Below, piece by piece: positions 9,917 to 38,818 of a stretch of 64,000 bases of DNA (the stretch's first letter is position 1; every line of letters begins with the position of its first letter). The notes under the pieces were generated by a model. That model had not been told where the DNA came from. It worked only from the letters and a program-made list of their open reading frames with translations, and made no database searches. Both the position numbers and the translations under genes were made by a program. Origin of the DNA: a virus. The stretch lies in the IMG/VR virus record IMGVR_UViG_3300043570_001980, positions 1 through 64,000 of that record. One strand, given 5' to 3'.

Positions 9917-9945
9917 TTGACCAATAAATCCTGTTTGTGTATAAT
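9917..9945 (+). promoter_or_regulatory. Sigma70-like promoter with +1 on the start codon
   Basis: TTGACC, 17 nt, TATAAT, then 6 nt to ATG 9952. The predicted transcription start coincides with the start codon; there is no ribosome site. Confidence 0.75.
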
Positions 9946-9951
9946 AGCTAC

Positions 9952-10167
9952 ATGAACAGGATTTTTCTTTTATCCATTTTATTAATTACAGGGTGTACAT
10001 CTACCCGGCCGCCTGTTGACGTCACACTCATTCCTGATGATTGTGCCAATCGACATGCTATAATCAGATGGTTAGAAACTCAGAGTACCCAAAATGATTC
10101 TGCAGAATTTCAACGCCAAGTCCGTGGCCGTATTTGGCGCATCCGTTATATTTGTCAGCCTGTTTAG
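9952..10167 (+). CDS. Small lipoprotein, 71 residues
   Basis: MNRIFLLSILLITGC is a classic lipoprotein signal with lipobox ITGC (acylated Cys14). The mature part has two further Cys (DDCANRH and YICQPV). An upstream in-frame ATG at 9937 lies upstream of the -10 box, so ATG 9952 is chosen. The 3' part overlaps the next lipoprotein gene by 74 nt in another frame. The nested arrangement recalls spanin pairs, but both proteins carry lipoboxes, so a two-component spanin is not well supported. Confidence 0.7.
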   Translation: MNRIFLLSILLITGCTSTRPPVDVTLIPDDCANRHAIIRWLETQSTQNDSAEFQRQVRGRIWRIRYICQPV

Positions 10168-10435
10168 TGGCTGTGCTGTACAACAGCCGATGCATGCCAT
10201 TGATTTAGAAAGCTTTCAAATCAATTGTCGCATTAAAGAACAGCAAATGCAATTTTTGCAGAGCATGCGTTCTGGAAGAGATGAACGCATGCTGGCAGGT
10301 GTGGGAAATTTAACACAACCCTGGAGCCGTTGGACAAACAATGAAGAACACTACCAGCGTCGAAGTATTCATAATGGGCGCACAAACTGGTTGATTAATC
10401 AACATCTAATGCACTTGTCTAGAGATTGTTCATGA
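10094..10435 (+). CDS. Lipoprotein, 113 residues
   Basis: An N-terminal hydrophobic segment ends in the lipobox LFSGC (Cys at about residue 27). The mature domain has Cys at FQINCRIKE and a final DCS, with a helical middle rich in Q, R and M. It starts inside the previous lipoprotein gene and its TGA overlaps the next ATG as ATGA, giving a coupled three-gene series. No family recognised. Confidence 0.7.
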   Translation: MILQNFNAKSVAVFGASVIFVSLFSGCAVQQPMHAIDLESFQINCRIKEQQMQFLQSMRSGRDERMLAGVGNLTQPWSRWTNNEEHYQRRSIHNGRTNWLINQHLMHLSRDCS

Positions 10436-10989
10436 AAAAAACATTAATACTTTTACTGATACCAGCGGCTGTTAGTGCTCAAGAATGTGTGCTACAAGAT
10501 CGTACAGTGACCAAAACGTCAGCGGTTATTGCAGAACGCAGTCAGATCAGGAGAGATGTAGTTGCCACTGCTTCTGGTAAAAAATGCATAGTTGACTTCA
10601 GAGCCAGAGTGGGGGTAAATTGGCATACTGCATTTGGTGAGTACAATTGGTCCGGTGACAGACCTGAAAATGAAGCCTGTGCCATTGCAGTTTCTAGAGC
10701 CGATGATTCGGTTAGAGAACGTGTGGGCAAAAACCAAACCACCAATGAAAAAGTTCTGGTCTGCAAGGACCAACCAAAATTGTCCGTTCTGTCTAGCACA
10801 CAAGTTGGTACAGTTGGTGATGTTGGTCAATTTAGGCCCCATCCAGAATACCCAAAACGTTTTTATCATAATGGAACCGAATGTAAATGGTTTGTTGAAT
10901 CTAATTTTGTTGCTCGTGATATTCGAACATACCAAGGTGTTATCTGCCAAATCCGAGAAGGAAAATGGGTAGTTACGGACAAATTTTGA
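10432..10989 (+). CDS. Secreted Cys-containing protein
   Basis: A signal peptide (MKKTLILLLIPAAVSAQ, cut near residue 17) precedes a mature protein of about 168 residues with six Cys, including QECVLQD, KKCIVDF, NEACAIAV, LVCKDQ, TECKWFV and VICQIRE, probably forming disulfides in the periplasm. ATG 10432 is preferred over the in-frame 10426 because it gives the ATGA overlap and a clean signal sequence. Function unknown. Third gene of the 9952-10989 secreted series. Confidence 0.75.
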   Translation: MKKTLILLLIPAAVSAQECVLQDRTVTKTSAVIAERSQIRRDVVATASGKKCIVDFRARVGVNWHTAFGEYNWSGDRPENEACAIAVSRADDSVRERVGKNQTTNEKVLVCKDQPKLSVLSSTQVGTVGDVGQFRPHPEYPKRFYHNGTECKWFVESNFVARDIRTYQGVICQIREGKWVVTDKF

Positions 10990-10990
10990 C

Positions 10991-11019
10991 TTGACTGGAT
11001 ATTGCGTTTTATGTACAAT
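10991..11019 (+). promoter_or_regulatory. Sigma70-like promoter of the entericidin-like micro-gene set
   Basis: TTGACT, 17 nt, TACAAT; an overlapping alternative is TTGCGT (11002), 17 nt, TATGTT. An AGGAGG ribosome site at 11041 precedes ATG 11052. Confidence 0.55.
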
Positions 11020-11051
11020 TGTGCTATGTTAACTAATGCCAGGAGGCTACA

Positions 11052-11180
11052 ATGAAGATGTTTGTTATTGGTACCATTTTTGGTCTAATACTTGCTACGG
11101 TTGGATTCAGCGGTATTGCTCGTATGCTAGACAAAGGGGTGGATACAGTTAAAACTCAAAGTCAGGAGATGGCAAAATGA
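11052..11180 (+). CDS. Membrane micro-protein 1 of a tandem set, 42 residues
   Basis: AGGAGG ribosome site, ATG 11052, one membrane segment (FVIGTIFGLILATVGF), then a charged tail DKGVDTVKTQSQEMAK identical to that of the next gene. Its TGA overlaps the next ATG. The tail codons are part of an exact 77-nt direct repeat. Function unknown; size and layout resemble entericidin-type small membrane proteins, without the lipobox. Confidence 0.65.
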   Translation: MKMFVIGTIFGLILATVGFSGIARMLDKGVDTVKTQSQEMAK

Positions 11181-11206
11181 AAAAAGCAGTTGCTATATTA
11201 CTTGTC
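11130..11206 (+). repeat. Direct repeat, copy 1 (77 nt)
   Basis: Begins GACAAAGGGG and ends TTACTTGTC. Identical to 11267-11343, offset 137 nt. It spans the end of one micro-gene and the start of the next. Confidence 0.95.
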
Positions 11207-11317
11207 CTAATGCTTGCAGTTTTTGGTCAGATACTTGCTACTAACAGCAGTATTGCTCGCATGTCAGACAAAGGGGTGGATACAGTTAAAACTCAAAGTC
11301 AGGAGATGGCAAAATGA
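11177..11317 (+). CDS. Membrane micro-protein 2, chimeric tandem copy, 46 residues
   Basis: The N-terminus MKKAVAILLV is identical to the following entericidin-like gene, and the C-terminus DKGVDTVKTQSQEMAK is identical to the preceding gene, so this gene looks like the junction product of a 137-bp tandem duplication. One membrane segment or uncleaved signal; the Cys of the lipobox is missing. ATGA overlaps on both sides. Confidence 0.65.
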   Translation: MKKAVAILLVLMLAVFGQILATNSSIARMSDKGVDTVKTQSQEMAK

Positions 11318-11343
11318 AAAAAGCAGTTGCTATATTACTTGTC
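11267..11343 (+). repeat. Direct repeat, copy 2 (77 nt)
   Basis: Exact second copy of 11130-11206. The lack of any substitution suggests a recent duplication. Confidence 0.95.
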
Positions 11344-11436
11344 TCGATGCTCACAGCCTGTGGAACCATGGGCGGAGCAGTAGGTGGTGCCGGCGAAGAT
11401 CTTAAAAAAGCCGGCGAATGGATTAAAACTCGTTAA
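11314..11436 (+). CDS. Entericidin-like lipoprotein, 40 residues
   Basis: A lipoprotein signal with lipobox LTAC (Cys15) is followed by GTMGGAVGGAGEDLKKAGEWIKTR. The pattern Cys-x-T-...-G-A-G-x-D-x-x-x-A-G is that of the entericidin EcnA/EcnB family of small membrane lipoproteins tied to host cell lysis or antitoxin balance. Overlap with the preceding gene is ATGA, and an AAGGAAAA site for the next lipoprotein follows directly. Family by motif; a lysis-related role is inference. Confidence 0.7.
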   Translation: MKKAVAILLVSMLTACGTMGGAVGGAGEDLKKAGEWIKTR

Positions 11437-11445
11437 GGAAAAATT

Positions 11446-12033
11446 ATGAAAAAACTTATTTTATTGGCACCCATTGTGGTTATTTTGGCGGCATGTAGTT
11501 CGTCTCCCAAAGACCCCTACGAACGCAGGGTTTACCATGATGAACAGCGCAGAGAAAAAGCGGCCGAACAGGCCATTGACCGAGCACCCAAATGGATGAC
11601 TGACCTACCAGTTTCTAAATCTGCTGTTTATCAAAATGGTACGGCTGTGAGCCCAGATTACAGCATGGCAGTTAGCAAAGCTAAAACCGTTGCATTTGGT
11701 AAAATTTGTATGAGTGCAGGCGGCCGTGTAAATCAGCAAAGCAAGATTTACCGAACAGACAGTGAAAATGCCAGCACTGAGTTCAGCGAACTGGCAATTA
11801 AAACATATTGCCCAGGTGTTGATATTTCGGGTGTGGAAGTTGCCGCAGAAGGCATCAAAGTTATTCCAGAAAATGGGCGTTTCAGAGCCTATGTTTTAAT
11901 TGCACTACCAATTGGGGAGGCAAACGGAATCCAGAAAGTGACTGATGCTCGTAACCAGCGCAGATTAGCCGAAACCCGTAGTCGTGAAAGCTTTAAAGAG
12001 ATGGAACGTACAGAAACTCAAAAGCCCCAGTAA
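11446..12033 (+). CDS. LPP20-like lipoprotein
   Basis: A signal with lipobox LAAC (Cys17) precedes a 179-residue mature protein. The core APKWMTDLP...VYQNGTAVSPDYSMAVSKAKTVAFGKIC resembles the LPP20 family of outer-membrane lipoproteins (P-x-W-x-x-x-P start, then a helix of A-x-x-x-A spacing). The charged C-terminus (about residues 170-195) is probably helical. It ends the lipoprotein series that begins at 9952. Confidence 0.6.
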   Translation: MKKLILLAPIVVILAACSSSPKDPYERRVYHDEQRREKAAEQAIDRAPKWMTDLPVSKSAVYQNGTAVSPDYSMAVSKAKTVAFGKICMSAGGRVNQQSKIYRTDSENASTEFSELAIKTYCPGVDISGVEVAAEGIKVIPENGRFRAYVLIALPIGEANGIQKVTDARNQRRLAETRSRESFKEMERTETQKPQ

Positions 12034-12057
12034 GTTCACCATAAGTACTAGGGTTAG

Positions 12058-12085
12058 CTAAAAGTGTGCTATAATACACTTTTAG
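12058..12085 (+). promoter_or_regulatory. Extended -10 promoter inside a perfect 10-bp inverted repeat
   Basis: Arms CTAAAAGTGT (12058-12067) and ACACTTTTAG (12076-12085) flank GCTATAAT, so the -10 hexamer TATAAT (12070-12075) forms most of the 8-nt loop. The -35 is poor. It could be a repressor operator, or a hairpin that ends upstream transcription. Confidence 0.65.
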
Positions 12086-12113
12086 TTGACCCTTTTCTTT
12101 TGAGCGAGATTAC

Positions 12114-12689
12114 ATGACACAAATTAAAGATGACGAAGATTACATTAGCCCTGGACAAAGCTTGCTTGAAGCTGGTATGTATGCCTTTATGGGTCCAGTA
12201 GATACCGAAAGTGTTAAGCCGGTAATTGAATGGATTCTTCATGCCAACTATGTTGTTAAGAAAAAGAAAAAAGAACTACTGCTAATGATTTGCAGTGAAG
12301 GTGGAGATTTGGAGCCTGCCTTTGCATTGATCGACGTAATGCAGAGTAGCAACATACCAATCAAGACTGTTGGGCTAGGTCAGATTTCTTCTTCGGGTTT
12401 GTTGATATTTCTAGCAGGAACTCCAGGCCGAAGATTGTTAACCCCAAATACCAGTATTTTGAGTCATCAATTTAGTTGGGGATCAGATGGCAAAGCACAC
12501 GAACTGTTTGCCACAGTCAAAGAGTTTGAACTCTGCCAGAAACGAATGCTTAATCACTATAAACAGGCCACTGGACTTGATGAAGATAAACTAAAACAAT
12601 GCTTGTTGCCACCACATGATGTCTGGCTCAGTGCCGAGGAAGCACTGGACTTTGGAATCTGCAATTCCATTAGCCGACTTGCTCGTTAA
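12114..12689 (+). CDS. clpP: ClpP-like serine protease
   Basis: A 191-residue protein of the ClpP/SppA crotonase fold. GLGQISSSGLLIFLAGTPGRR aligns with the ClpP nucleophile region (Ser93), SHQF supplies His118, and PHDVWLSAEEALDFG supplies Asp169, completing the triad. The ICSEGGD strand (60-65) matches the ClpP oxyanion-side glycine motif. Full ClpP length without propeptide. No ATPase partner is nearby. In phages ClpP-like proteases are often prohead or capsid-maturation enzymes, but this one sits by lipoprotein genes. It is transcribed from its own palindrome-embedded promoter. Confidence 0.85.
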   Translation: MTQIKDDEDYISPGQSLLEAGMYAFMGPVDTESVKPVIEWILHANYVVKKKKKELLLMICSEGGDLEPAFALIDVMQSSNIPIKTVGLGQISSSGLLIFLAGTPGRRLLTPNTSILSHQFSWGSDGKAHELFATVKEFELCQKRMLNHYKQATGLDEDKLKQCLLPPHDVWLSAEEALDFGICNSISRLAR

Positions 12690-14263
12690 CGACCACCAGG
12701 ACGGCGCTTGCGACCCAATGCTTGATCGGGATTCTTTGGAGCACCAACATCCCCGGCCGCTTTGATATCACTGCGTGGTGGAATGTAGTCTACCAATTCT
12801 CCAGCGTTGTTTGCTCCGGGTGTGTTAGTGGTAGCTGACTTTTCTACGTTGGGCTCTACTCTAGGTTCTTTGTTGATATTAAATACCAACTTGCCGCCCG
12901 AGCTCGAAGTACTTGAATAACTCTTTTGTGCTTCTAACGTCACTTCGGTAAACAACTTGCTGGGCCATACTGTGGTAAACCCAGTGATGATAAATTCTTC
13001 CTTGCCTTTTTTAGCTTCAGTGTACATTTGAACAAACGCAGAGTTATTGAGAATATCTGCACCTGCTTCACTAAAATTTGTTTTTAAATTAATTTCGTTA
13101 CAGACTTTGTAGGCAATGCTAGACACCAAATGATTCAATGGTACAATTTTAGATGGATCATCGGCTTTGCGTTCTTTGTAAATTGCTTTTAGATTATCAG
13201 TTAAGTCAGTGTTGTCAATATCAAAGCCCTTTACACCAGCATACTGTTTTAAAGTCATGACCTGTTGTGCTTCAGTTTTGTCGATTATGCCAAGTTGTGT
13301 TGCAAGGTTTAATGGTCCTGAGTCGTGATTGCCTTTGTTGATGGTTTCCAAGATATCAATTACATCTGCATACTGCTCAGTAAACTGTGTCATCCCTGCC
13401 GCTTCAAGTTCACGCACACTCTTGAGTAAATTAACACTAGATGCCATTGCACCTTTGGCACCTTTACTGGATAGTTTAATCTGTTTACCATTTGGCGCTA
13501 TTAATAAACTGTCATAGAGTTCTCCGCCCACACCCTCATTGAATGACACAACACAATCGCTGTAGTCGCCCCCAAGGAACAATTCTGCGGCCTTGCCAGC
13601 ATTGCCCTTGACTGGCATGTTGTTTATTAAAGCAATAGGCTGTAGCATTTCGCAGAAGTAATCACGAAAAGCCCCAAAGTCCATGTTACCAGCAGGAACC
13701 ACAACTGGAAACTGTGTGGACTTGTTAAAAATTGCTGCCGCTTGATACTCGGTGCTGTCTGCACCAAATTTGGTTTTTATTTGTTCTAATATACTAGATG
13801 GGGTTTGACTCTTGAAGTTAGTTAACACATCACTGGGCTTGTATCCAACTTTTTCTTTACTGCCTCTTGCGCTGACTTGGTTAAATCCCCCAGGGATGTC
13901 TACTGTTTGAAAAAAAGTATTTTGGGTACGCACTGGTTTAATGTCCGAAGCAAACTTGGCTAGATATCTACGACCAACAGCAGTATCAAATTGTGCAATA
14001 GCAAATGCTAGTGTACGTGCAGTTGGTTGATTAATTTTTTCAATTGGGTGCTTGATTGATCGTTGTACTTGATCAAACGCCGCAATCATATCTTCGTAGC
14101 TGGGATATTTTCCTGGATCTGGATAAAATTGCATGCCTTGAAAAACAATTTTGTCCTGATCATCAGTGGATCCGGTACGTACAAACGCATCGCCGGGATT
14201 TCTGGCACTAAGGCCACGTGCTTCAAAAACAAGGTTATCTAGAATATTAATTAAGTCTCGCAT
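12686..14263 (-). CDS. Large conserved-looking phage protein of unknown function
   Basis: The longer frame opens at 14374, but the likely start is ATG 14263 (MRDLINILDNL), because the longer version would run into the divergent radical SAM gene and because a TAAATA box lies 4 nt upstream. The resulting 525-residue protein is soluble, has no signal peptide, and includes ISxKG-like LSSKGAKGAMASSVNLLKS and a Ser/Gly-rich C-terminus followed by a basic tail (LGRKRRPGGR). I do not recognise the family. A virion or DNA-associated role is possible. Confidence 0.7.
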   Translation of the reverse strand: MRDLINILDNLVFEARGLSARNPGDAFVRTGSTDDQDKIVFQGMQFYPDPGKYPSYEDMIAAFDQVQRSIKHPIEKINQPTARTLAFAIAQFDTAVGRRYLAKFASDIKPVRTQNTFFQTVDIPGGFNQVSARGSKEKVGYKPSDVLTNFKSQTPSSILEQIKTKFGADSTEYQAAAIFNKSTQFPVVVPAGNMDFGAFRDYFCEMLQPIALINNMPVKGNAGKAAELFLGGDYSDCVVSFNEGVGGELYDSLLIAPNGKQIKLSSKGAKGAMASSVNLLKSVRELEAAGMTQFTEQYADVIDILETINKGNHDSGPLNLATQLGIIDKTEAQQVMTLKQYAGVKGFDIDNTDLTDNLKAIYKERKADDPSKIVPLNHLVSSIAYKVCNEINLKTNFSEAGADILNNSAFVQMYTEAKKGKEEFIITGFTTVWPSKLFTEVTLEAQKSYSSTSSSGGKLVFNINKEPRVEPNVEKSATTNTPGANNAGELVDYIPPRSDIKAAGDVGAPKNPDQALGRKRRPGGR

Positions 14264-14267
14264 CCTA

Positions 14268-14273
14268 TATTTA
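14268..14273 (-). promoter_or_regulatory. Late-type promoter box, minus strand
   Basis: GGTAAATA on the minus strand ends 4 nt before ATG 14263. No ribosome site; a leaderless or nearly leaderless late mRNA is predicted. Confidence 0.45.
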
Positions 14274-14291
14274 CCACGATAAGTAACAACA

Positions 14292-15599
14292 ATGGAACAA
14301 AATAAATTGAATATCAACCAACAAACTTTTTGTATTAGTCCCTGGACTGAAGTCAGGATCAATTCAGACGGCACAATGAACTTTTGTCATTTTGCTGATC
14401 GTGCTGACTTACCAAACAGTGAGCATATCAATTCAATGACTGTGGATGAGTATTTTTCAAATTCAAATTCAGCACAATCTGCAAGAAAAAATATACTCAA
14501 TGGAAACCCTGTTGCCCGATGTCATCGTTGCTATAAAGAAGATCAACACAGTGAAGTAACATTTCGTAGTCGCAGAAATCTGCAGGCTGCTATATTTCCG
14601 GGACAGGATTTTCAACAAAGCGCAGAAGAAAGTCCTGTTTGGAAAATTATCAATGCTGATAAATCTAGTCCAAGATTTTATCATATTAGCTTTAGTAATA
14701 TTTGCAACATGGCCTGTGTGATGTGTGATGGGTTTAACAGCACACTATTGGCTGCCGATTTAAATAAAATTGGCCTAAGAGATTCTAGTATTCCGATCAA
14801 ACACGACTGGACTGATACACCCACTTGGGGAAAATTCTGTGATCACTTGTTAAACAACAATGATATTGTTTGTCTGCATGTCATGGGCGGAGAACCGTTG
14901 TACCATAAACGATTTAGAGATTTGATAACATTCTTGTGCAACAACAATCACACAGATTTCCATCTTACTTTTGTGACCAATGGAACTATCTACGATCCAG
15001 AGTTGATGACACAATTAGAAAAATTTAAGTCTGTGCAGATTGAAATCAGCATTGAGAATCTAGACATTAGTAATGATTATATTCGATACCCAGGAAAAAC
15101 TAGCAAGATTGTCGACAACATTCGACAATATCTAGCCCACTCAAATGAAAAATTTAGCACAGTATTACGCACAGTTCCGCAACTGTTAAGTCTGATGCAC
15201 TACGATAAACTTTTGGATTTTTGTCTAGAACACTCTATCATTATTGACAGTAATGTCCTACATCGTCCAGAGTTTTTTAGACCCTGTTACCTTCCTAACT
15301 CGGCCAAGGAAGTAATTAAATCAAGACTTGCAAGATTTATTCTCAAAGATAAAGATGTACTGCACAATATTAACGTTAGAAATCAATCAAGAGTGGTAGA
15401 ATCAATATCTCATCATGCACAAATGATTATAGGATTGTTGGACCAGACTGGAGTCAACATAGAAACTGTTAGACAAGAACTAACTGACTATTGTGCTAAA
15501 TTTGATCAATTACGAGAACATGACTTGCGTGAGTTTGTGCCAGAACTAGCAGAATTTTTAGATGAGTACGGTTATGCAAAAAAACGATATCAAAATTAA
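14292..15599 (+). CDS. Twitch-domain radical SAM enzyme
   Basis: A 435-residue protein with the radical SAM cluster motif CNMACVMC (Cys138, Cys142, Cys145) and MGGEPL (SAM-binding GGE) after it. Upstream Cys residues in FCISPW (14), FCHF (32) and CHRC (77, 80) form the N-terminal twitch or auxiliary-cluster region, as in the N-terminal-twitch radical SAM family. Substrate unknown; members often sit by glycosyltransferases or peptide-modification genes. The next gene overlaps its end by 26 nt. Confidence 0.85.
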   Translation: MEQNKLNINQQTFCISPWTEVRINSDGTMNFCHFADRADLPNSEHINSMTVDEYFSNSNSAQSARKNILNGNPVARCHRCYKEDQHSEVTFRSRRNLQAAIFPGQDFQQSAEESPVWKIINADKSSPRFYHISFSNICNMACVMCDGFNSTLLAADLNKIGLRDSSIPIKHDWTDTPTWGKFCDHLLNNNDIVCLHVMGGEPLYHKRFRDLITFLCNNNHTDFHLTFVTNGTIYDPELMTQLEKFKSVQIEISIENLDISNDYIRYPGKTSKIVDNIRQYLAHSNEKFSTVLRTVPQLLSLMHYDKLLDFCLEHSIIIDSNVLHRPEFFRPCYLPNSAKEVIKSRLARFILKDKDVLHNINVRNQSRVVESISHHAQMIIGLLDQTGVNIETVRQELTDYCAKFDQLREHDLREFVPELAEFLDEYGYAKKRYQN

Positions 15600-16014
15600 T
15601 CTTTCAGTCAGTACAAGAATGGTAACAACTGTTCCTGAATATACTATCAAACTCGATGACCATGTGTTATGGACAGTTACAGATTCAAGTAGACAGGATT
15701 TTTTAATTGTACAGTCAGTGTATCCTGGACAGCACAGATTAAGTATTGAGTTCTTTAATAAAAATTACAAGGAAATACAGCCCCCGAAATCTGACATGGC
15801 AGTGATTATTGATTCTATTAGATTTCAAAATATCAAATCAGATTTCAAAGTTTACTCAAAGTATCAGCCAACATATCCCGACGATTGGCTAGGAAACAAG
15901 GATAAGATTGTACATGCCAATTACCTGGGTTGGAATGGCATTTGGTATATAGATTTTGAAACGCCAATTTATCCGTGGATACATCAGCGTCTAGATCTAG
16001 GTTGGTTGTTGTAA
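15574..16014 (+). CDS. Beta-sandwich protein of unknown function
   Basis: A 146-residue protein that starts inside the end of the radical SAM gene (ATG 15574). The sequence alternates hydrophobic and polar residues (INLSVSTRM, PEYTIKLDDHVLW, HRLSIEFFNK, MAVIIDSIRF) in the way of a jelly-roll or carbohydrate-binding fold, ending in an aromatic-rich tail (WNGIWYIDFETPIYPWI). Similar small beta proteins occur in other T4-type phages (recalled). A glycan-binding role is only a guess. Confidence 0.65.
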   Translation: MQKNDIKINLSVSTRMVTTVPEYTIKLDDHVLWTVTDSSRQDFLIVQSVYPGQHRLSIEFFNKNYKEIQPPKSDMAVIIDSIRFQNIKSDFKVYSKYQPTYPDDWLGNKDKIVHANYLGWNGIWYIDFETPIYPWIHQRLDLGWLL

Positions 16015-16015
16015 C

Positions 16016-16114
16016 TTAAAACCAGCCAGCAAAGTCATCACCGATAACAGGATGTACTTCCCATCCTTGTTGTTTCCAACGCAACAACATCACAAGAGTT
16101 TCTATAAATGTCAT
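16016..16114 (-). CDS. Micro-protein, 32 residues, last of a four-gene overlapping set
   Basis: Start ATG overlaps the previous stop as ATGA. MTFIETLVMLLRW then a Trp-rich polar tail (QGWEVHPVIGDDFAGWF). Too short to classify. The chain of ATGA overlaps is the main support. Confidence 0.5.
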   Translation of the reverse strand: MTFIETLVMLLRWKQQGWEVHPVIGDDFAGWF

Positions 16115-16188: not shown

Positions 16189-16190
16189 AA

Positions 16191-17489: not shown

Positions 17490-17518
17490 TTGACCAATAA
17501 TTACCATTTTGCTATAAT
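17490..17518 (+). promoter_or_regulatory. Sigma70-like promoter with +1 on the start codon
   Basis: TTGACC, 17 nt, TATAAT with TGC before the -10. ATG 17525 is exactly 7 nt downstream of the hexamer end. Confidence 0.8.
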
Positions 17519-17524
17519 AATAAC

Positions 17525-17758
17525 ATGAAATTAGATACTAACGAAATACTACAATGGGCAGGTGCCGTGTTTATAGTAGCAGGGCACAGTTTAAACGCCG
17601 TCGGACCCGAGGCTTATCCCTACAATATCCTTACATTTTTTATAGGAACCATACTGTTTCTAGCATGGACTGTGCGTGTTGTAAATAAACCACAGATGTT
17701 TGTAAATCTTGTAAGTGTAGCAATTGGTTTTTCTGGGCTGGTAAAAGCATACAGTTGA
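17525..17758 (+). CDS. Small membrane protein, 77 residues
   Basis: Three hydrophobic segments (about residues 9-28, 33-50 and 56-75) with few charges; PYNILTFFIGTILFLAWTVRVVNKPQMF is the middle section. The mRNA is predicted leaderless. It resembles the candidate holin at 25639 in layout (hydrophobic, R-V-V-x-K/R-x-x-x-N region, hydrophobic). No family recognised. Confidence 0.65.
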   Translation: MKLDTNEILQWAGAVFIVAGHSLNAVGPEAYPYNILTFFIGTILFLAWTVRVVNKPQMFVNLVSVAIGFSGLVKAYS

Positions 17759-17783
17759 CCAATAATTGCCAATTTGCTATAAT
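17755..17783 (+). promoter_or_regulatory. Sigma70-like promoter
   Basis: TTGACC, 17 nt, TATAAT. Its -35 overlaps the stop codon of the preceding gene. +1 near 17790, where an ATG also lies. Confidence 0.8.
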
Positions 17784-17813
17784 ACGAGTATGAAAACAAA
17801 AAAGGAACCAAAG

Positions 17814-17915
17814 ATGCCAAAACAAAAAAAGAAAACCCTGGGTGAACTTTTACGTAAGAAGTTGGGACTCAAACCAACCCTGAATCAGTTATTGATAAAA
17901 CGGTTGACCAAATAA
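17814..17915 (+). CDS. Basic micro-protein, 33 residues
   Basis: An AAAGGAACC site precedes ATG 17814; an in-frame ATG at 17790 would coincide with the predicted +1 and add eight residues. The peptide MPKQKKKTLGELLRKKLG is strongly basic and helical. It ends within the next promoter. Role unknown; a host-protein-binding or nucleic-acid-binding peptide is possible. Confidence 0.5.
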   Translation: MPKQKKKTLGELLRKKLGLKPTLNQLLIKRLTK

Positions 17916-20720: not shown

Positions 20721-20749
20721 TTGACTAACAAATCATTTTAGTGTATAAT
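20721..20749 (+). promoter_or_regulatory. Sigma70-like promoter with +1 on the start codon
   Basis: TTGACT, 17 nt, TATAAT, then 6 nt to ATG 20756. No ribosome site. Confidence 0.75.
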
Positions 20750-20755
20750 TTATAT

Positions 20756-21205
20756 ATGATTAAAAAACTCATGCATCGACTAGGCCGATATCGGTTGATT
20801 CTGGATCGACAATCAAATGAACCATATCTAGAACGCTACTATGTGTTCCTTAAAGATCGTACATGGTTTCCGTTTAACATTTTTGTACATAAGTTTCTCA
20901 AAAGCGATCCCGATGATGTACATGATCATCCATGGCCTTATGCTACTGTAATTTTGAAAGGTGGATACTATGAATGGATTCCTCAGTTTAATTCAAACGG
21001 CGAAAAAATTGGCGAGATTGCAAAGTGGCGAGCTCCTGGTCATTTTAGGATTTGTAGTGCTACTAGTTATCACAGGATTGAACTAGATCCCACAGTAGAA
21101 TGTTGGACCATGTTCATGCCTGGTCCTCAAAAACGTGAATGGGGATTTTTAGTCAACAACAAATGGATACAACACGAACAATATCTTAACAATCGTGCCA
21201 AATAA
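20756..21205 (+). CDS. Cupin-like protein
   Basis: 149 residues. DDVHDHPWPYATVILKGGYYEW has the cupin metal motif (HDH followed by G-G-Y-Y-E), and SATSYHRIEL supplies the second-motif His. Cupins of this form occur in many large phages and are often near sulfotransferase-like genes; reaction unknown. The in-frame ATG at 20741 overlaps the -10 region, so ATG 20756 is used, which makes the mRNA leaderless. The next gene overlaps its end by 11 nt. Confidence 0.7.
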   Translation: MIKKLMHRLGRYRLILDRQSNEPYLERYYVFLKDRTWFPFNIFVHKFLKSDPDDVHDHPWPYATVILKGGYYEWIPQFNSNGEKIGEIAKWRAPGHFRICSATSYHRIELDPTVECWTMFMPGPQKREWGFLVNNKWIQHEQYLNNRAK

Positions 21206-32342: not shown

Positions 32343-32346
32343 CTGG

Positions 32347-32668: not shown

Positions 32669-32680
32669 AAGGAAATCAAA

Positions 32681-32932
32681 ATGCGTCACGTATCTGGTTT
32701 TAGCAACAGCACCCGAATTCGTTTTATCATTGACGGATTTGGTATGTATGCAACCATCAATGATGTTTTTACAAAAACAGCCACAGTATCGCATGGTGCG
32801 GCTCTGCGATATGCTGTGGAGTATCTGGCAGAAATTCGTCGTCGTAGTCCAGTTCTGGGCGAAAGCCGTCCAGTGGGCACCGTGATTACACACGAAGGTC
32901 ACCAGGTCCAAATCAATTTGATGGCCAATTGA
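32681..32932 (+). CDS. Small protein, 83 residues
   Basis: AAGGAAATC site before ATG 32681. Contains GFGMYATINDVFTKTATVSHGAALRYAVEYLAEIRRRS, a beta-alpha unit. Function unknown. Last gene before the promoter at 32939. Confidence 0.55.
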   Translation: MRHVSGFSNSTRIRFIIDGFGMYATINDVFTKTATVSHGAALRYAVEYLAEIRRRSPVLGESRPVGTVITHEGHQVQINLMAN

Positions 32933-32938
32933 TTTTGG

Positions 32939-32967
32939 TTGACCAATAATTCCCAATTTGCTATAAT
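32939..32967 (+). promoter_or_regulatory. Sigma70-like promoter
   Basis: TTGACC, 17 nt, TATAAT with TGC extension. CAGGAG site before ATG 33000. Leads the longest small-gene run (33000-35597). Confidence 0.85.
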
Positions 32968-32999
32968 ATACACATACACTAACAAAACAGGAGCAGAAA

Positions 33000-33407
33000 A
33001 TGGCATATATCGGAGCACAAGAAGTCAAGTCAATTCGCGACGCACTCAAAGCACAATTCCCCAAGTTTAAATTCAGTGCCCGTAAAGGCAGTGGTTCACT
33101 CAGCGTTGAAGTCACTGTTAAATCTGGTCCTATTGATTTCTTTGAAAATCACAATCAGACCATAGATCACCGTCATGTTGACAGTCGTCTTGCAGAAGGT
33201 TACATGCAGATTAACCCCTACTGGTTCCAAGATCATTTTACTGGCGAAGCCAAGGATGCAATTGATCAGTTCTTGCGTATCATCAAGACTGCACCCGAGC
33301 GTCAGTGGTACGACCGCAGTGATGCAATGACAGATTATTTTGACACCGCTTTTTACATTCACCTGAATATTGGTGAGTGGAGCAAGCCCTACGTATTAGT
33401 TAAGTAA
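33000..33407 (+). CDS. LPD29-like protein
   Basis: 135 residues. IRDALKAQFPKFKFSARKGSGSLSVEVTVKSGPIDFF then HVDSRLAEGYMQINPYWFQDHF resembles LPD29, a small domain found in large polyvalent proteins and phage accessory genes. Function unknown to me. AT-rich leader with own promoter. Confidence 0.5.
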   Translation: MAYIGAQEVKSIRDALKAQFPKFKFSARKGSGSLSVEVTVKSGPIDFFENHNQTIDHRHVDSRLAEGYMQINPYWFQDHFTGEAKDAIDQFLRIIKTAPERQWYDRSDAMTDYFDTAFYIHLNIGEWSKPYVLVK

Positions 33408-33419
33408 ACAGGAGACACC

Positions 33420-34151
33420 GTGAATCCCAAGACTTATTTTCACCCAGCAAATGGTTACAATCCTCGTTATGGTGTTCGTCGCACCAAAGCTACAGTGAAT
33501 TCATTTAAGTATTCTGTTGATGATGTTTGGGGTGCGGCTGTAGCGGCACAACGTGTTAACGGAGAATATCTCAAAGAAGATAAGACCAATATAACTGAAG
33601 ATGGTTCCTATGAGACTCTCCAGAAGCGCAATCGTGACATCATGATGGACTTCCTGGCTGTGCCCGGTACCATCACCGACGAGGATCGTTTGATTGGTCG
33701 CGAGTGCCGTAGATTCTTGCAAAATGATCTTACCTTCCGTGCGCTCAAAGGCCAGCTCAGTGCATTTGATGCAAGTGTCAGCCGGGTTGTGGCTGTTGAA
33801 GATGAATTTGATACTGTACAACATCGACTGGAATTGGCTGTGGTTGCATGTTTGCCACAGAGCCATCAACGTGCATTGGTGCGCCAGTCAATCCAGGACC
33901 GTGTACGCAATGCCAGCGGCGGCTATGTTGGCAATGTCAGCGACAAAGTAGCATTAGATGCAGAAGTTGTGAGTGCCAACTGGAGCAACACATACAACAT
34001 TTTTTGGGTCACTGCAATTACCCAAGATAATCGAGCCTTGTTTTTCAGCTACAAATCTCAGCTGAATTCAGGTATCCAAATCAAATTGATTGGTACTGTA
34101 AAAGCTCATCGTGACAACAAAACCCAACTCAATCGTGTTAAGGTGTTATAA
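33420..34151 (+). CDS. Unknown protein, 243 residues, GTG start
   Basis: Start GTG 33420 with a CAGGAG site. Residues 40-90 are charged helices; the C-terminus (SNTYNIFWVTAITQDNRALFFSYKSQLNSGIQIKLIGTVKAHRDNKTQLNRVKV) looks like an OB-type beta barrel, so a nucleic-acid-binding role is possible but unproven. TAATG-coupled to the next gene. Confidence 0.6.
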   Translation: MNPKTYFHPANGYNPRYGVRRTKATVNSFKYSVDDVWGAAVAAQRVNGEYLKEDKTNITEDGSYETLQKRNRDIMMDFLAVPGTITDEDRLIGRECRRFLQNDLTFRALKGQLSAFDASVSRVVAVEDEFDTVQHRLELAVVACLPQSHQRALVRQSIQDRVRNASGGYVGNVSDKVALDAEVVSANWSNTYNIFWVTAITQDNRALFFSYKSQLNSGIQIKLIGTVKAHRDNKTQLNRVKVL

Positions 34152-34399
34152 TGTTTGATAAAGATATTAATATTAGTAATCTCACTGGTCGTCAGGTTGA
34201 AATGCTGGACATAATGTGGAGTCTTGAACACTATGAAGACATAGAAGCTTGGCAGGCAACTTTAGATCTTCAAGAACGAGAAATGAGCGAAACACTCATG
34301 CGATTGATTTTGCTAGAACTAGTTGACGAAACCATTAATGCTATTAACAAAGAAGACTTGTCCTTGGCCAAAGACTATTTGAAAAAGTTTCAACTATGA
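34151..34399 (+). CDS. Small acidic helical protein, 82 residues
   Basis: TAATG-coupled. Helical and acidic throughout (LTGRQVEMLDIMWSLEHYEDIEAWQATL), ends ATGA-coupled. Function unknown. Confidence 0.55.
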   Translation: MFDKDINISNLTGRQVEMLDIMWSLEHYEDIEAWQATLDLQEREMSETLMRLILLELVDETINAINKEDLSLAKDYLKKFQL

Positions 34400-34737
34400 A
34401 TCCCAAAGACCATCAATTTTTGGCCATGTGGGACTGCTACGGTCTTGAGACCTTGATTGACATTACCGAAACTCAGGGCGCCAAAGTTTGGGCCGCACTA
34501 AAAGGTGAACCCGATACTGTGAGGATTCCCAATTTGATGCACCTTGAACTCAGAGCACGTTATAATAGTCAACGACACTACGAAATTTATATTTTTAATG
34601 CTCAAGAAGGCATTACCAAAGATGACATTCAGGATATGTTTGATGCTGATCCGCAGACAGCCGCAGATACTATTCGCAGGATCGGTCATCGTTATTACAG
34701 CAATCGACGTGACGAACATGCAATTGCAATTAGATAA
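34396..34737 (+). CDS. Small protein, 113 residues
   Basis: Begins MNPKDHQFLAMWDCYGLETLID; alpha/beta with a C-terminal ADTIRRIGHRYYSNRR. Coupled by ATGA. Similar proteins seem to occur in other T4-type genomes, but I cannot name a family. Confidence 0.6.
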   Translation: MNPKDHQFLAMWDCYGLETLIDITETQGAKVWAALKGEPDTVRIPNLMHLELRARYNSQRHYEIYIFNAQEGITKDDIQDMFDADPQTAADTIRRIGHRYYSNRRDEHAIAIR

Positions 34738-34748
34738 GGAGCGCCAGC

Positions 34749-35171
34749 ATGGGACTTGATATGTATGCATACGTGGCTGCCAGAGCTGGACAACAAAGTG
34801 AGTTTTACGAGGGTGCCGAATTTGACCAAGATTCTAGGGATTTTGTCAACAAGGTAGTATCTAAACCACGTGAACTTGCTTACTGGCGCAAGCACCCTAA
34901 CCTGCATGGTTGGATGGAACAACTGTGGAATCAACGCAACGGTGGCAATCAGGATGGCAACACCTTTAATGGTATTGAACTTGAGTTAACTTATGATGAT
35001 TTAGAACGACTTGAGCTTGATGTCATTGCAGGTACATTACCAGGTACATCTGGATTCTTTTTTGGTGATGATGCAGATGACCACTATCAAGATCAAGATC
35101 TTGAATTTATACGGAACGCTCGAGCTGAGTTGTTCATGGGATTGAAAGTATTTTATAATTCTTCATGGTAA
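34749..35171 (+). CDS. Conserved phage protein (MGLDMYAY type)
   Basis: 140 residues. The start MGLDMYAYVAARAG and ELAYWRKHPNLHGWMEQLW are typical of a very common phage accessory protein of unknown function, sometimes mislabelled as an enzyme. AAGGAG site at 34736. Confidence 0.7.
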   Translation: MGLDMYAYVAARAGQQSEFYEGAEFDQDSRDFVNKVVSKPRELAYWRKHPNLHGWMEQLWNQRNGGNQDGNTFNGIELELTYDDLERLELDVIAGTLPGTSGFFFGDDADDHYQDQDLEFIRNARAELFMGLKVFYNSSW

Positions 35172-35177
35172 CATTGT

Positions 35178-35597
35178 ATGAAAATTGGACTTAGTTACAG
35201 CCGTTGTGTCCGAGATATTGTGGACGGTCGAGTAGACATCAACGACGTTTTGATTATCATCAGTCGCACGGATTTTGATCCTCACGATGATGAACAATGG
35301 GCTGGTATCTGGCAAGGATATCATCAGAGTAGCGGTTGGAGTAATCCCGAATGGGGCCACTATACAGACGAAGATGAAGCTAAGTTTCGTAGTGTCAGCA
35401 TTGAACTTTGGGAATCAGGTAAACTGCACCAACCACGCAAGTTTGGTGCTCATCCAGCTCGCCGCTCTGAGATTTGGCTTGAGGCAGTACTGCCCAGCAG
35501 TGAACTCAAACGCAACCCTGCGGCCCAGGATGCCTGGAATCGTTTCCAAACCATTGCAGGTCTGACCAATGTTAAATTGGACAAAGACTACCAATAA
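35178..35597 (+). CDS. Conserved T4-type protein (GLSYSRCVRDIVDG type)
   Basis: 139 residues. KIGLSYSRCVRDIVDGRVDINDVLIIISRTDFDPHDDEQW is a well-known start of an uncharacterised T4-family protein. It supports the T4-type assignment of the window. Function unknown. Confidence 0.75.
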   Translation: MKIGLSYSRCVRDIVDGRVDINDVLIIISRTDFDPHDDEQWAGIWQGYHQSSGWSNPEWGHYTDEDEAKFRSVSIELWESGKLHQPRKFGAHPARRSEIWLEAVLPSSELKRNPAAQDAWNRFQTIAGLTNVKLDKDYQ

Positions 35598-35602
35598 AAT
35601 GG

Positions 35603-35631
35603 TTGACCAATTAATTGATTCGTGCTATAAT
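35603..35631 (+). promoter_or_regulatory. Sigma70-like promoter with +1 on a start codon
   Basis: TTGACC, 17 nt, TATAAT, then 6 nt to ATG 35638. No ribosome site. Confidence 0.75.
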
Positions 35632-35637
35632 ACATAC

Positions 35638-35787
35638 ATGGACAAAAAATTAACCAGTTTTGAGCGGGTAAATATGTTGCAAAAAAACAACACATTTGCT
35701 TGCTCAAATATAGCAGGAAAGGTTGACACAAAAACCCTTTTTTGCTATACTAATGATATGCTGATAAAAACAGCATACAAACTTTAA
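35638..35787 (+). CDS. Small protein, 49 residues, predicted leaderless
   Basis: MDKKLTSFERVNMLQKNNTF then SNIAGKVDTKTLFCYTNDM. The 3' half contains the next promoter (35723-35751), so it may be a leader ORF more than a functional protein. Not recognised. Confidence 0.35.
   Translation: MDKKLTSFERVNMLQKNNTFACSNIAGKVDTKTLFCYTNDMLIKTAYKL
35723..35751 (+). promoter_or_regulatory. Sigma70-like promoter
   Basis: TTGACA, 17 nt, TATACT. An ATG lies exactly at the predicted +1 (35758) and opens a nine-codon frame ending at 35787; the main gene starts at 35817 with GAAAGG. Confidence 0.75.
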
Positions 35788-35816
35788 CTTAATAGGCAAC
35801 TTTGAAAGGCAACATT

Positions 35817-36176
35817 ATGTCAGAATCTAAACTCTTTACAGTAGCAGGTACCGCAACTAACGCAGACGGTACCACAAAGGCTCGCTTTGCTAACGACCTC
35901 GTCGCTCGCATCAAGATCCTCAACAAGGCAGGATGCACAGCCATTAATTTGGTTGAACTCCCATCGCCCATGACAAAACTGCAGGCCCTGCAGTTCTTGC
36001 AAGACACACAAGGCTACACTGGTGATGCCAGCTATGCCGTAGCCAACAAGCTGTCTGAGAAGACCAAGCTTGCCAAGAAAGGCGAGATCAAGGTAACTGC
36101 AAAGTCTGCAAAGACTGTGGCAACCAAGGCTCCTGTTGCAAAAACAGAAGTAAAGGCTCCTGAAGCCCAAGTATAA
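35817..36176 (+). CDS. Protein with N-terminal folded domain and Ala/Lys-rich tail
   Basis: 119 residues. The first 80 residues (LFTVAGTATNADGTTKARFANDLVARIKILNKAG then LQFLQDTQGYTGD) look folded; the last 35 (KGEIKVTAKSAKTVATKAPVAKTEVKAPEA) are a disordered basic tail. A DNA-bound or virion-internal protein is possible. Followed by a strong terminator. ATG 35817 preferred over TTG 35802. Confidence 0.65.
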   Translation: MSESKLFTVAGTATNADGTTKARFANDLVARIKILNKAGCTAINLVELPSPMTKLQALQFLQDTQGYTGDASYAVANKLSEKTKLAKKGEIKVTAKSAKTVATKAPVAKTEVKAPEAQV

Positions 36177-36195
36177 GCGCAATGCTTATATTAAC

Positions 36196-36220
36196 AAGCG
36201 GCCCAAGAGGCCGCTTTTTT
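36196..36220 (+). terminator. Rho-independent terminator
   Basis: AAGCGGCC, CAAGA, GGCCGCTT, then T-run. 20 nt after the preceding stop. Confidence 0.9.
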
Positions 36221-36297
36221 ATGGCCTCTTAATCTAAAACCATAAATTATTAGAGTGCCAAAAACACCATATCTTTGTATCAGTCATAATTAAAAAT

Positions 36298-36552
36298 ATG
36301 TTAGATGACAAAGTCTCAGAGGACACAATAAAATTACTACTCCTTGATTTATGCAAAGTAATGCACTCATATGGTTATAAAAAAATACGCATGGGACACA
36401 TAATGCGTCTTTTAGGAATGGATTCTAAGTCTGCTAGCAAGTACGATGAAGACTACATAGAGCTTAACCATGAGTTTGAAGATTTGATTCACGAAACTGA
36501 GCAATCTCTGTTAAACGATATAACAATACCAATCGGTACAACCATACATTAA
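36298..36552 (+). CDS. Small helical protein, 84 residues
   Basis: Helical (TIKLLLLDLCKVMHSYGYKKIRMGHIMRLLGM) with an acidic second half. No good ribosome site; a 14-nt motif AGAGTGCCAAAAAC lies upstream at 36251 and recurs at 36790. Function unknown. Confidence 0.6.
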   Translation: MLDDKVSEDTIKLLLLDLCKVMHSYGYKKIRMGHIMRLLGMDSKSASKYDEDYIELNHEFEDLIHETEQSLLNDITIPIGTTIH

Positions 36553-36553
36553 A

Positions 36554-36790
36554 ATGAGTATAAGCAATTTCAGAGCTCAAGAAGCTCTGTACATAGTTAT
36601 TCTGCGAGATAAGAATGCAGAGCAACTGCTCAAACAATGGGCCAAAGATTCAAATGTTCAGGTATCCATAGAAAATAATCGCATGAAGATATTTGAACAA
36701 CGAGGCCTATCTGTATTCCATTTGAATTGGTCACATGGTTGGGACAATATCACAATCTGGGATTGCTGGAACAAAAGACACATAGACTAA
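36554..36790 (+). CDS. Small protein, 78 residues
   Basis: Starts 1 nt after the previous stop. Contains ALYIVILRDKNAEQLLKQWAKDSNVQVSIENNRMKIFEQRGLSVFHLNW, an alpha/beta arrangement. Function unknown. Confidence 0.55.
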   Translation: MSISNFRAQEALYIVILRDKNAEQLLKQWAKDSNVQVSIENNRMKIFEQRGLSVFHLNWSHGWDNITIWDCWNKRHID

Positions 36791-36805
36791 GAGTGCCAAA
36801 AACCA

Positions 36806-36834
36806 TTGACATTGGTGGCATTTAATCATAAAAT
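36806..36834 (+). promoter_or_regulatory. Sigma70-like promoter
   Basis: TTGACA, 17 nt, TAAAAT. AAGGAG site before ATG 36861. Confidence 0.75.
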
Positions 36835-36860
36835 ACTAGAGTCAACTTAAGGAGATTACA

Positions 36861-37046
36861 ATGACACAACACGAACAAATCGTAGCCGCTTACGAAAGCT
36901 ACCTGGCAGAAAATGAGAAGTTTACCCAAAAGGGTGTTAAAGCGGCAGCCGCCCGTGCTCGCAAGGCCTTGCAAGAAATGAGCAAAGGCATCAAAGAGCG
37001 CCGTAAAGAAATCACAGCAGAAAAAGAAGCTTTGGCAACAAAATAA
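36861..37046 (+). CDS. Histone Hc1-like basic helical protein
   Basis: 61 residues. KGVKAAAARARKALQEMSKGIKERRKEITAEKEA follows the pattern of the Hc1-type bacterial histone-like proteins (KG-x-KAAA-x-RAR-x-x-L ... R-x-E-I-x-A-E-K), with a polar N-terminal helix in front. DNA binding is inferred. Own strong promoter and the following AbrB-like gene suggest a regulatory pair. Confidence 0.5.
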   Translation: MTQHEQIVAAYESYLAENEKFTQKGVKAAAARARKALQEMSKGIKERRKEITAEKEALATK

Positions 37047-37047
37047 A

Positions 37048-37221
37048 ATGACTCAGTCCTGGACTCTTACAGTTGAAGAAGACCCAGAAACCGGTGATGC
37101 TATTCTTAAGTTCCCAGAGGATTTATTAGAAGCTGCCGGTTGGCAAGAAGGTGATGTCCTTAATTGGACAGACTTAAAGGATGGATCATGGGAATTAAAA
37201 AAGATTATACAGAACAATTAG
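37048..37221 (+). CDS. AbrB/SpoVT-like small protein, 57 residues
   Basis: Starts 1 nt after the previous stop. SWTLTVEEDPETGDAILKFPEDLLEAAGWQEGDVLNWTDLKDGSWELKK has the AbrB swapped-hairpin form: strand, P-x-x-L-L-E-x-A-G-W-x-E-G-D-x-L turn, strand. Common in T4-type phages (recalled). DNA-binding role inferred. Overlaps the next gene by 34 nt. Confidence 0.65.
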   Translation: MTQSWTLTVEEDPETGDAILKFPEDLLEAAGWQEGDVLNWTDLKDGSWELKKIIQNN

Positions 37222-37739
37222 ATTTGTTTAATAGTATGTCCTCCACAACCGATACATTAAGTTTGGATTTAACAGACTCAACTGATGACAGTTCATGGCT
37301 TGATCAAGATACCATGGCGTCCTCTAATACTGTGGATACAATTACACTAGGGTCAGGATACGGGTCAATGACAATATCAGGTGGAAGCCCGGTGTACACA
37401 ATTGGACCAATAACAACCGGAGTTTCAGGGCCAGGATTTAATTGGAGCAACACAGGTGCAGCCTCATCCGGTGTGCATGTTAACTCTAATCAAGGCAGTG
37501 GCGTAATTGATGTCAAAGGTGAAAACGCTGATATCAAAATCAACGGAGTCAGTCTCAGTGACACACTAAAAGTAATTCAGGATCGTCTTAATTTATTACA
37601 ACCCAATCCTGAATTAGAAGCTGAATGGGACCAACTACGTGAAGTAGGCGACCAGTATAGAAAACTCGAAGCTGAGTTTAAAGAAAAAACCAAAATGTGG
37701 AATACACTCAAAAGCATGCCACCACCGGAGATCAAATGA
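37188..37739 (+). CDS. Phage protein with Ser/Thr/Gly-rich middle and coiled-coil end
   Basis: 183 residues; start ATG 37188 has AAAGGA at proper spacing. After DYTEQLDLFNS comes a long Ser/Thr/Gly region (TITLGSGYGSMTISGGSP), then DIKINGVSLSDTLKVIQDRLNLLQPNPELEAEWDQLREVGDQYRKLEAEFKEK. A similar architecture is recalled from other T4-type phages. Possibly virion-associated; function unknown. ATGA-coupled to nadE. Confidence 0.65.
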   Translation: MGIKKDYTEQLDLFNSMSSTTDTLSLDLTDSTDDSSWLDQDTMASSNTVDTITLGSGYGSMTISGGSPVYTIGPITTGVSGPGFNWSNTGAASSGVHVNSNQGSGVIDVKGENADIKINGVSLSDTLKVIQDRLNLLQPNPELEAEWDQLREVGDQYRKLEAEFKEKTKMWNTLKSMPPPEIK

Positions 37740-38530
37740 CACCCAAGCAACGCATTAAACACATTACCAAGTGGATCAAAGACTACGCCCGTAGTGCCAA
37801 AGTTGATACCCTGGTTGTTGGCATTTCGGGTGGGATTGACAGCTCAGTTGTCAGCGCACTTTGTGCCAACACTGGACTAAAAACCATTGTGGTGCAAATG
37901 CCTATTAGGCAAAACAAGAAACTAGATAATCGCAGTTCAATGCAGGCTTCTTGGTTGTTGGATCGCTATCAAGAAAACGTCACACACATGAGCATGGACT
38001 TGACCAAAGTTTTTGATTCATTTGAAAAAAATCTCATACCTTACTGTAGGGAAAATGCAGATGAACAACGAGTTTATCTAGCTTTTGCCAACTCACGTGC
38101 TAGATTGAGAATGATGACCTTGTACCAAATTGCACAAAGCCATGGTGGTATTGTTGTGGGCACAGGCAATCGGGTAGAAGACTTTGGTGTGGGCTTCTTT
38201 ACCAAATACGGTGATGGCGGCGTAGATATCAGTCCTATTGGTGACTGCATGAAAACTGCTGTGTGGGACATGGGTCGTGAATTTGGCTTGCCACAAGAAA
38301 TCATTGATGCGGCTCCTACAGATGGCCTATGGACAGATGGTCGTACCGACGAAGATCAATTGGGTATGACTTATCCAGAATTAGAACAGGCCATGCACCA
38401 AGCAGAAACCAATTCGGGTGTTGATAATGCACAAGAAAAGAAAAGGCTCAAAGCATACCGTGCTATACGTGCCCGAAACTTGCACAAAATGGAACCAATT
38501 CCGGTTTGTAAAATACCAGTTGACCACTAA
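37736..38530 (+). CDS. nadE: NAD synthetase (ammonia-type)
   Basis: 264 residues. LVVGISGGIDSSVVSALCA has the PP-loop SGGIDSS (31-37); the later GTGNRVEDFGVGFFTKYGDGGVDISPIGDC is the conserved NadE nicotinic-acid and ATP contact segment (G-T-x-N-x-x-E ... K-Y-G-D-G-x-x-D-x-x-P). No glutaminase domain, so it uses ammonia, the usual short bacterial type. It makes NAD from nicotinic acid adenine dinucleotide in the cytoplasm. ATG 37736 overlaps the upstream stop. No other NAD genes in the window. Confidence 0.95.
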   Translation: MTPKQRIKHITKWIKDYARSAKVDTLVVGISGGIDSSVVSALCANTGLKTIVVQMPIRQNKKLDNRSSMQASWLLDRYQENVTHMSMDLTKVFDSFEKNLIPYCRENADEQRVYLAFANSRARLRMMTLYQIAQSHGGIVVGTGNRVEDFGVGFFTKYGDGGVDISPIGDCMKTAVWDMGREFGLPQEIIDAAPTDGLWTDGRTDEDQLGMTYPELEQAMHQAETNSGVDNAQEKKRLKAYRAIRARNLHKMEPIPVCKIPVDH

Positions 38531-38548
38531 ATCTTGTTATGCTATAAT
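38520..38548 (+). promoter_or_regulatory. Sigma70-like promoter with +1 on the start codon
   Basis: TTGACC, 17 nt, TATAAT, 6 nt, ATG 38555. The -10 to ATG segment is itself an inverted repeat: ATGCTAT, AATA, ATAGCAT (38539-38556). Confidence 0.8.
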
Positions 38549-38554
38549 AATAGC

Positions 38555-38818
38555 ATGAAACTTGTACACAATCACTGCGATATTGTTGTTGAAACTCGCC
38601 CGTTTATGCAGGACGTTATGGTCATACTAGAAGGTGGCCTCGATGCAGGCGACTGGAGGTGGGCTCGGAAAGAGTTTACAGCTCGGCACGAACGCTGGAT
38701 AAAATGGATGATCCAACACGGCTACGAAGCAGGCCGACACTACTGGCCCTGCAAAGAAGGCTATCGTTTTTCTTCCGGCGCCCTGGCCACAGCATTTGTA
38801 TTGGGAATAACAAAATGA
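38555..38818 (+). CDS. Small Trp-rich protein, predicted leaderless
   Basis: 87 residues. KLVHNHCDIVVETRPFMQDVMVILEGGLDAGDWRWARKEFTARHERWIKWMIQHGYEAGRHYW. Alpha/beta, no motif. The longer frame from 38534 overlaps the -10 box, so ATG 38555 is chosen. Next gene coupled by ATGA. Confidence 0.6.
   Translation: MKLVHNHCDIVVETRPFMQDVMVILEGGLDAGDWRWARKEFTARHERWIKWMIQHGYEAGRHYWPCKEGYRFSSGALATAFVLGITK

Follow-up and report, generated by a model that had tools for sequence, protein, structure and literature searches.

Sigma70-type promoters positioned for probable leaderless initiation at conserved genes of a large phage clade

Enterobacteria are generally said to use leaderless initiation rarely, and phages provide a few examples, of which lambda cI is the classical one. 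The question here concerns a stretch of viral DNA in which several promoters stand directly against a start codon: do the mRNAs of these genes begin with their own AUG? The stretch, hereafter the window, comprises bases 1-64000 of the 341,990-base IMG/VR record IMGVR_UViG_3300043570_001980 (G000; GC 40.7%), and nearly all of its strong promoters lie on the same strand. Seven of them follow the pattern TTGAC(C/T/A)-17-TATAAT-6 nucleotides (nt)-ATG, with a -35 to -10 arrangement of the sigma70 type; the initial annotation had described this geometry, and it is exact at all seven sites except that TATACT serves as the -10 at 35723. The same annotation had proposed that the resulting transcripts are leaderless, and four features support this: the spacing is exact, a Shine–Dalgarno (SD) sequence is missing, the ATG coincides with a pyrimidine–purine initiator, and orthologous genes have kept the same distance across deep divergence. 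On this sequence evidence, we consider it highly probable that the mRNAs of the genes with ATG at 6 nt are leaderless.

The spacing of exactly 6 nt is strongly overrepresented. On the plus strand of the window, 7 of 17 strict promoters have an ATG at this offset (binomial P = 3e-8, from the window ATG frequency). Genome-wide counts covered the rest of G000 and five relatives of 317-347 kb, six genomes together, and revealed an ATG at offset 6 in 55 of 293 strict promoters (Poisson P ~1e-49), while each of the offsets 3-5 and 7-18 held 0-6 (mean 2.9); these counts repeat orthologues, with 223 of the 293 left once near-identical promoters were removed. The initial annotation had tied its reading to such a genome-wide excess, and the excess is present. 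A second ATG mode, 19-33 nt past the -10 with its maximum at 30, represents the SD-led class. Counting instead from start codons back to the -10 placed the coding-strand maximum at 6 nt in all six genomes (7, 9, 10, 8, 6, and 7 starts), with 0-4 at neighboring offsets and 0-1 on the opposite strand. Exact-pattern searches of 15 records gave 94 matches to the 38-base pattern, all 94 on the coding strand, compared with none for the reversed control and five for a pattern with a 9-nt gap in place of 6.

IMG/VR holds hundreds of environmental relatives of the G000 phage, and the G000 terminase shares 53% identity over 99% with those of the Pseudomonas jumbo phage PA5oct and its relatives, making PA5oct (Arenbergviridae) the nearest cultured group by terminase comparison; a terminase scan of bacterial genomes for a host returned no match. 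We scored orthologue families for a -10 placed 5-7 nt before the start codon and the lack of an SD sequence, using windows 12-34 nt upstream as the control and counting distinct upstream sequences (70 for primase, 53 for a DexA-like exonuclease, 28 for the family of the gene at 17525, and 56 for that of the gene at 20756). In the primase family (G000 299707, outside the window), 59 of 70 upstreams carry the -10 at 5-7 nt, 58 of them at exactly 6; the other 11 all have weaker -10s, identically placed and of the TAnACT type in ten and set at 8 nt in one (L432). The DexA-like family has the arrangement in 49 of 53 upstreams with widely diverged flanking DNA, and the 17525 family has exactly 6 nt in 27 of 28, whereas the control windows of these three families contain only 0-2 -10 matches. 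Start codons are 66 ATG and 4 GTG for primase, 53 ATG for the DexA-like exonuclease, and 27 ATG and 1 TTG for the 17525 family; in G000, G006, and PA5oct the primase begins with GTG, again 6 nt past the -10. The start of the DexA-like exonuclease (G000 252231, also outside the window; Pfam Rv2179c-like, 2e-35) is pinned because its MIDIE motif begins at residue 4. No SD sequence precedes the leaderless starts in the upstream sequences examined, and a -35 is found at most sites, being weak or missing at many dexA and primase sites, which carry TGn-extended -10s. We take the same spacing recurring in diverged orthologous DNA as the strongest evidence for a leaderless reading. About ten genes per genome appear to be leaderless and kept so at orthologues across the clade, and G000 candidates outside the window further include a GIY-YIG-like gene (117774), a gene with a 5-nt spacing (148365), and one with a 7-nt spacing that belongs to a PHROG of unknown function (295195).

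The base immediately 5' of the ATG is a pyrimidine at 29 of 31 non-redundant leaderless starts versus 33 of 67 SD-led starts (Fisher 1e-5), which fits a -1 pyrimidine/+1 purine initiator with the A of ATG as +1. At the same position, the SD-led promoters of the family read ATA in 44, ATT in 7, and ATG in 6 of 127 cases in the six genomes, and TTGAC-N18-TATAAT-N6-ATA has 123 matches in the 15 records. The family consensus is approximately TTGACCAATAAT-N5-TTTGCTATAAT-N5-Y-AT[A/G]. Because of the -1 pyrimidine and these triplet counts, the family as predicted prefers a YAT initiator, and leaderless and leadered members are largely told apart by the base that follows. This supports the earlier suggestion that leaderless starts are a chosen option, since other promoters of the family drive SD-led genes and carry ATA or ATT in place of ATG and orthologues of the gene at 20756 differ in mode. 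Near-identical promoter and leader modules (TATAATACTTGTATAGTAATTAAAAAGGAG) are also repeated in the window (17904, 32347), elsewhere in G000 (322724, 323329), and in many relatives; their ATG lies ~30 nt past the -10, and they look like copied promoter–ribosome-binding-site cassettes.

These observations suggest how the two modes may operate. A single family of sigma70-type phage promoters, presumably read by host RNA polymerase, would most likely start transcription at the A seven bases past the -10. Where +3 is G, the mRNA would begin 5'-AUG and undergo leaderless translation, probably through binding of initiator tRNA and an undissociated 70S ribosome; where +3 is A or T, it would usually carry a leader of ~15-30 nt and an AAGGAG-like site. 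A more tentative joint reading, to which we give only a limited chance, adds that the +3 base decides the mode, that primase, DexA-like exonuclease, UvsW-like helicase, nuclease, and spanin genes are kept leaderless so that their proteins are still made as host initiation changes during infection (e.g., altered initiation factors or 30S subunits), and that a promoter within a terminator loop limits spanin translation to self-initiated leaderless mRNA. G000 also encodes a ribosomal protein, bS21 (329660-329806, L014; Pfam 1.3e-16), which recurs in G001, G004, G006, G010, and G013 and is annotated in PA5oct. It was rejected as the cause of the leaderless preference, as it was not found in G002, G003, and G005, which have leaderless genes too; the bS21 gene of G000 is suggestive, but such a gene is not required for leaderless use.

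Three other explanations were weighed against leaderless initiation. The ATG could be a by-product of the initiator, with a family that prefers A at +1 and T at +2 occasionally having G at +3 without any translational role; AT at these positions is indeed common to the SD-led promoters, some ATGs at 6 nt open ORFs (open reading frames) of only 2-14 codons, and a 5'-terminal stem of at least 5 bp that takes in the ATG is present at 7 of 13 such short-ORF sites compared with ~23 of 179 other promoters (Fisher 0.001). However, ORFs of at least 40 residues open at 39 of the 55 ATG+6 sites in the six genomes, many of these genes are conserved with no alternative start and no SD sequence, ATG or GTG is kept across orthologues, and the SD-led promoters place ATG there in just 6 of 127 cases. 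The by-product explanation is refuted for long conserved genes and, as a general account, very improbable, while for 35758, 322230, and similar short ORFs it is likely the right one. The sites with such a stem would seem to yield leadered mRNAs with a hairpin at the very 5' end, which again places the transcription start at that A. Transcription might alternatively start a few bases upstream, leaving leaders of 1-5 nt, with an AUG almost at the 5' end for a 70S ribosome or 30S subunit to bind. Start positions of sigma70 promoters vary by roughly a base and 7-nt members exist (295195, L417), but the spacing distribution has a narrow maximum at 6, followed by 5, and 7 is rare, and the -1 pyrimidine agrees with the A of ATG as +1, so that we think very short leaders improbable. 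Least probable of the three is SD-independent translation of read-through transcripts from upstream operons, with the adjacent promoter incidental or a booster. Most genes do run in the same direction with little space between, and some orthologues lack a promoter and lie within operons (the 20756 family is promoter-adjacent in 9 of 56), yet leaderless starts have no SD sequence, read-through RNA at 9952 would enclose the AUG in a terminator-like stem of 16 bp, and the conserved spacing at primase, dexA, and 17525 would be left unexplained.

Several observations weigh against the leaderless reading. Members with 5 or 7 nt exist, and a start 1-3 bases earlier would give a very short leader; some ATGs at 6 nt open short ORFs only, for which 5'-terminal hairpins or the initiator give the better explanation; and dexA of G005, closely related to G000, has lost the arrangement. 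In G000, G005, and G006 the gene at 20756 is leaderless, whereas G002 and G004 have an SD-led form (AAAGGAG). Because this gene differs among phages and dexA changed in G005, the leaderless state is, on the predicted starts, evolvable, yet long held at primase, dexA, and 17525. A gene whose product begins MEHPLI (window 52430-52481) has a 22-nt gap from the -10 and no clear SD sequence in G000 and G005, with orthologues that are leaderless at 6 nt in G001, G002, and G004 and SD-led in G006.

Within the window, all sites lie on the plus strand, and the spacing is exact at each of the five that the initial annotation had listed as leaderless, although one of them precedes a doubtful gene. The promoter at 9917-9951 (-35 9917-9922, -10 9940-9945, ATG 9952) drives gene A (9952-10167), a 71-residue lipoprotein and Rz1-like outer spanin candidate with a weak match to an Rz-like spanin PHROG (E 0.007); its start must lie close to 9952 because the product begins with MNRIFLLSILLITGCTS, a lipoprotein signal peptide. 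In the orthologues L502 and L503, a -10-like box of weaker sequence still lies 5-6 nt from the start. The promoter at 17490-17524 (-10 17513-17518) precedes gene B (17525-17758), which encodes a 77-residue membrane protein with a DUF6552-like match below cut-off; that at 20721-20755 (-10 20744-20749) precedes gene D (20756-21205), 149 residues, of a cysteine-dioxygenase-like family (phrog_4786, 3e-36); and that at 38520-38554 (-10 38543-38548) precedes gene F (38555-38818), 87 residues of unknown function, leaderless too in G004, G005, and L438/L439 (5-6 nt). The exception is the promoter at 35603-35637 (-10 35626-35631), where the 49-residue ORF E (35638-35787) is doubtful as a gene because the ORF was found again in no genome but the near relative G005 and shares bases with the promoter that follows.

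Two further promoters had been described as having both an ATG at 6 nt and a downstream SD-led start, and both features are present. Behind the promoter at 17755-17789 (-10 17778-17783), found also in G005, the basic 41-residue ORF C (17790-17915) could start without a leader at 17790 or internally at ATG 17814, and the choice is ambiguous because the latter is in frame and preceded by an SD sequence (AAGGA, 17802-17806). The promoter at 35723-35757 (-10 35746-35751) serves an SD-led gene at 35817, and its ATG at 35758, which opens a 9-codon ORF, falls in a hairpin (AUGCUG-AUAAAAA-CAGCAU, 35758-35776) that is compensated in G004 (AUGUUG..CAACAU). Rather than serving as a start, this ATG probably belongs to the 5' arm of a hairpin at the very front of a leadered mRNA. 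An eighth site, missed by the initial annotation, is TTGACT-17-TACAAT-6-ATG 11026 (10991-11055), with a weaker -10; its ORF of 9 codons, present also in G005, has a stop overlapping (ATGA) the AGGAGG-preceded ATG 11052, and translational coupling is possible.

The promoter of gene A is nested in a terminator-like element, a 16-bp hairpin with a U-run at 9926-9964 on the plus strand (-17.8 kcal/mol, z -5.3, folded as read-through RNA), in which the loop and the -10 overlap and ATG 9952 is part of the 3' stem. L502 and L503, at 53-54% protein identity to gene A, keep the hairpin with bases changed yet paired, and similar covarying elements are found in G002 and G004. RNA arriving from upstream of 9926 would terminate or bury AUG 9952 in the stem, while RNA started at that AUG would lack the left stem arm, so we infer that gene A is readily translated from leaderless mRNA only. 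Overall, the AUG is paired in read-through RNA to the same degree at leaderless and other promoters, so this element is no property of the class, and palindromes over the -10 are not enriched in leaderless promoters overall or in dexA. Inverted repeats spanning promoters numbered 16 against 11 expected, and given a total so near expectation only covarying cases were counted. What we read from the sequence as a second promoter nested in a terminator-like hairpin lies at G000 71129-71175 (L001; orthologues G002 47886 and G004 172148), where the -10 is inside a covarying hairpin (AATCCTGTATAATTAACTGTACAGGATTTTTT) and the ORF behind it begins MTDHYATLGVPK, J-domain-like by eye. At the primase loci L356-L435, the -10 and the 6-nt spacer are spanned by an inverted repeat with arms that differ in sequence yet match (CTGTT..AACAG, TGCTACA..TGTAGCA, CTATAC..GTATAG); it is enriched in a swap test uncontrolled for relatedness and is possibly an operator. 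Separately, a cluster of tRNA-Met(CAT), tRNA-Leu(TAA), and tRNA-Arg(TCT) genes (L003:14874-15125) is preceded by a strict promoter at G000 118835.

A large phage clade seems to keep leaderless starts at genes for replication, repair, and lysis, with the same promoter family serving SD-led genes alongside them. Leaderless and SD-led members form natural pairs that differ mainly at one base. In addition, why a phage would bypass SD-led initiation becomes testable, partly in cultured PA5oct, and recognizing the leaderless class improves start annotation in such phages.

Among known systems, the TA-led leaderless genes are similar in having a TANNNT or TATAAT box shortly before the start codon and no SD sequence (PMC3160421), and the features of that class recur here: a -10-like box at 5-7 nt, no SD sequence, and AUG starts with GUG rarer. 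Those genes were described in cellular genomes, strongly represented in Actinobacteria and Deinococcus-Thermus but present in few gamma-proteobacteria (PMC3160421), whereas the genes reported here belong to a phage clade and have full -35/-10 promoters of a family that also serves SD-led genes. In Deinococcus-Thermus, a -10 at the required spacing from an ORF likewise gives leaderless mRNA, and the -10 motif acts as a promoter that an added -35 enhances (PMC12340547); here, by contrast, a -35 is present at most sites, dexA and primase being the frequent exceptions. Two papers refer to leaderless initiation in lambda (PMC3160421, PMC9031893), and the lambda cI mRNA from PRM resembles our predicted leaderless mRNAs in coming from a phage gene that a sigma70 promoter transcribes from its AUG; cI, however, is one repressor gene, compared with a class of ~10 lytic-type genes in each genome that many phages have kept. 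The AR9 study states that phage transcripts are often leaderless, while AR9's own leaders measure 26-491 nt (PMC5312081). In PA5oct, the primase EST35_0223, whose GTG lies at 145884 or 145890, and the annotated putative exonuclease EST35_0240 at 158242 start directly after TTGACA-17-TATAAT (GTG at 6 nt and ATG at 7 nt, respectively), although its genome-wide count of ATG at 6 nt shows no excess; T4, Phosso, and Atu_ph07 have zero matches to TTGAC-N18-TATAAT and are uninformative as controls. Our literature search, of incomplete coverage, turned up no account of leaderless genes conserved as a set in a jumbo phage clade. Leaderless mRNA is already known; the systematic, conserved use predicted here for a phage clade is a new form of it.

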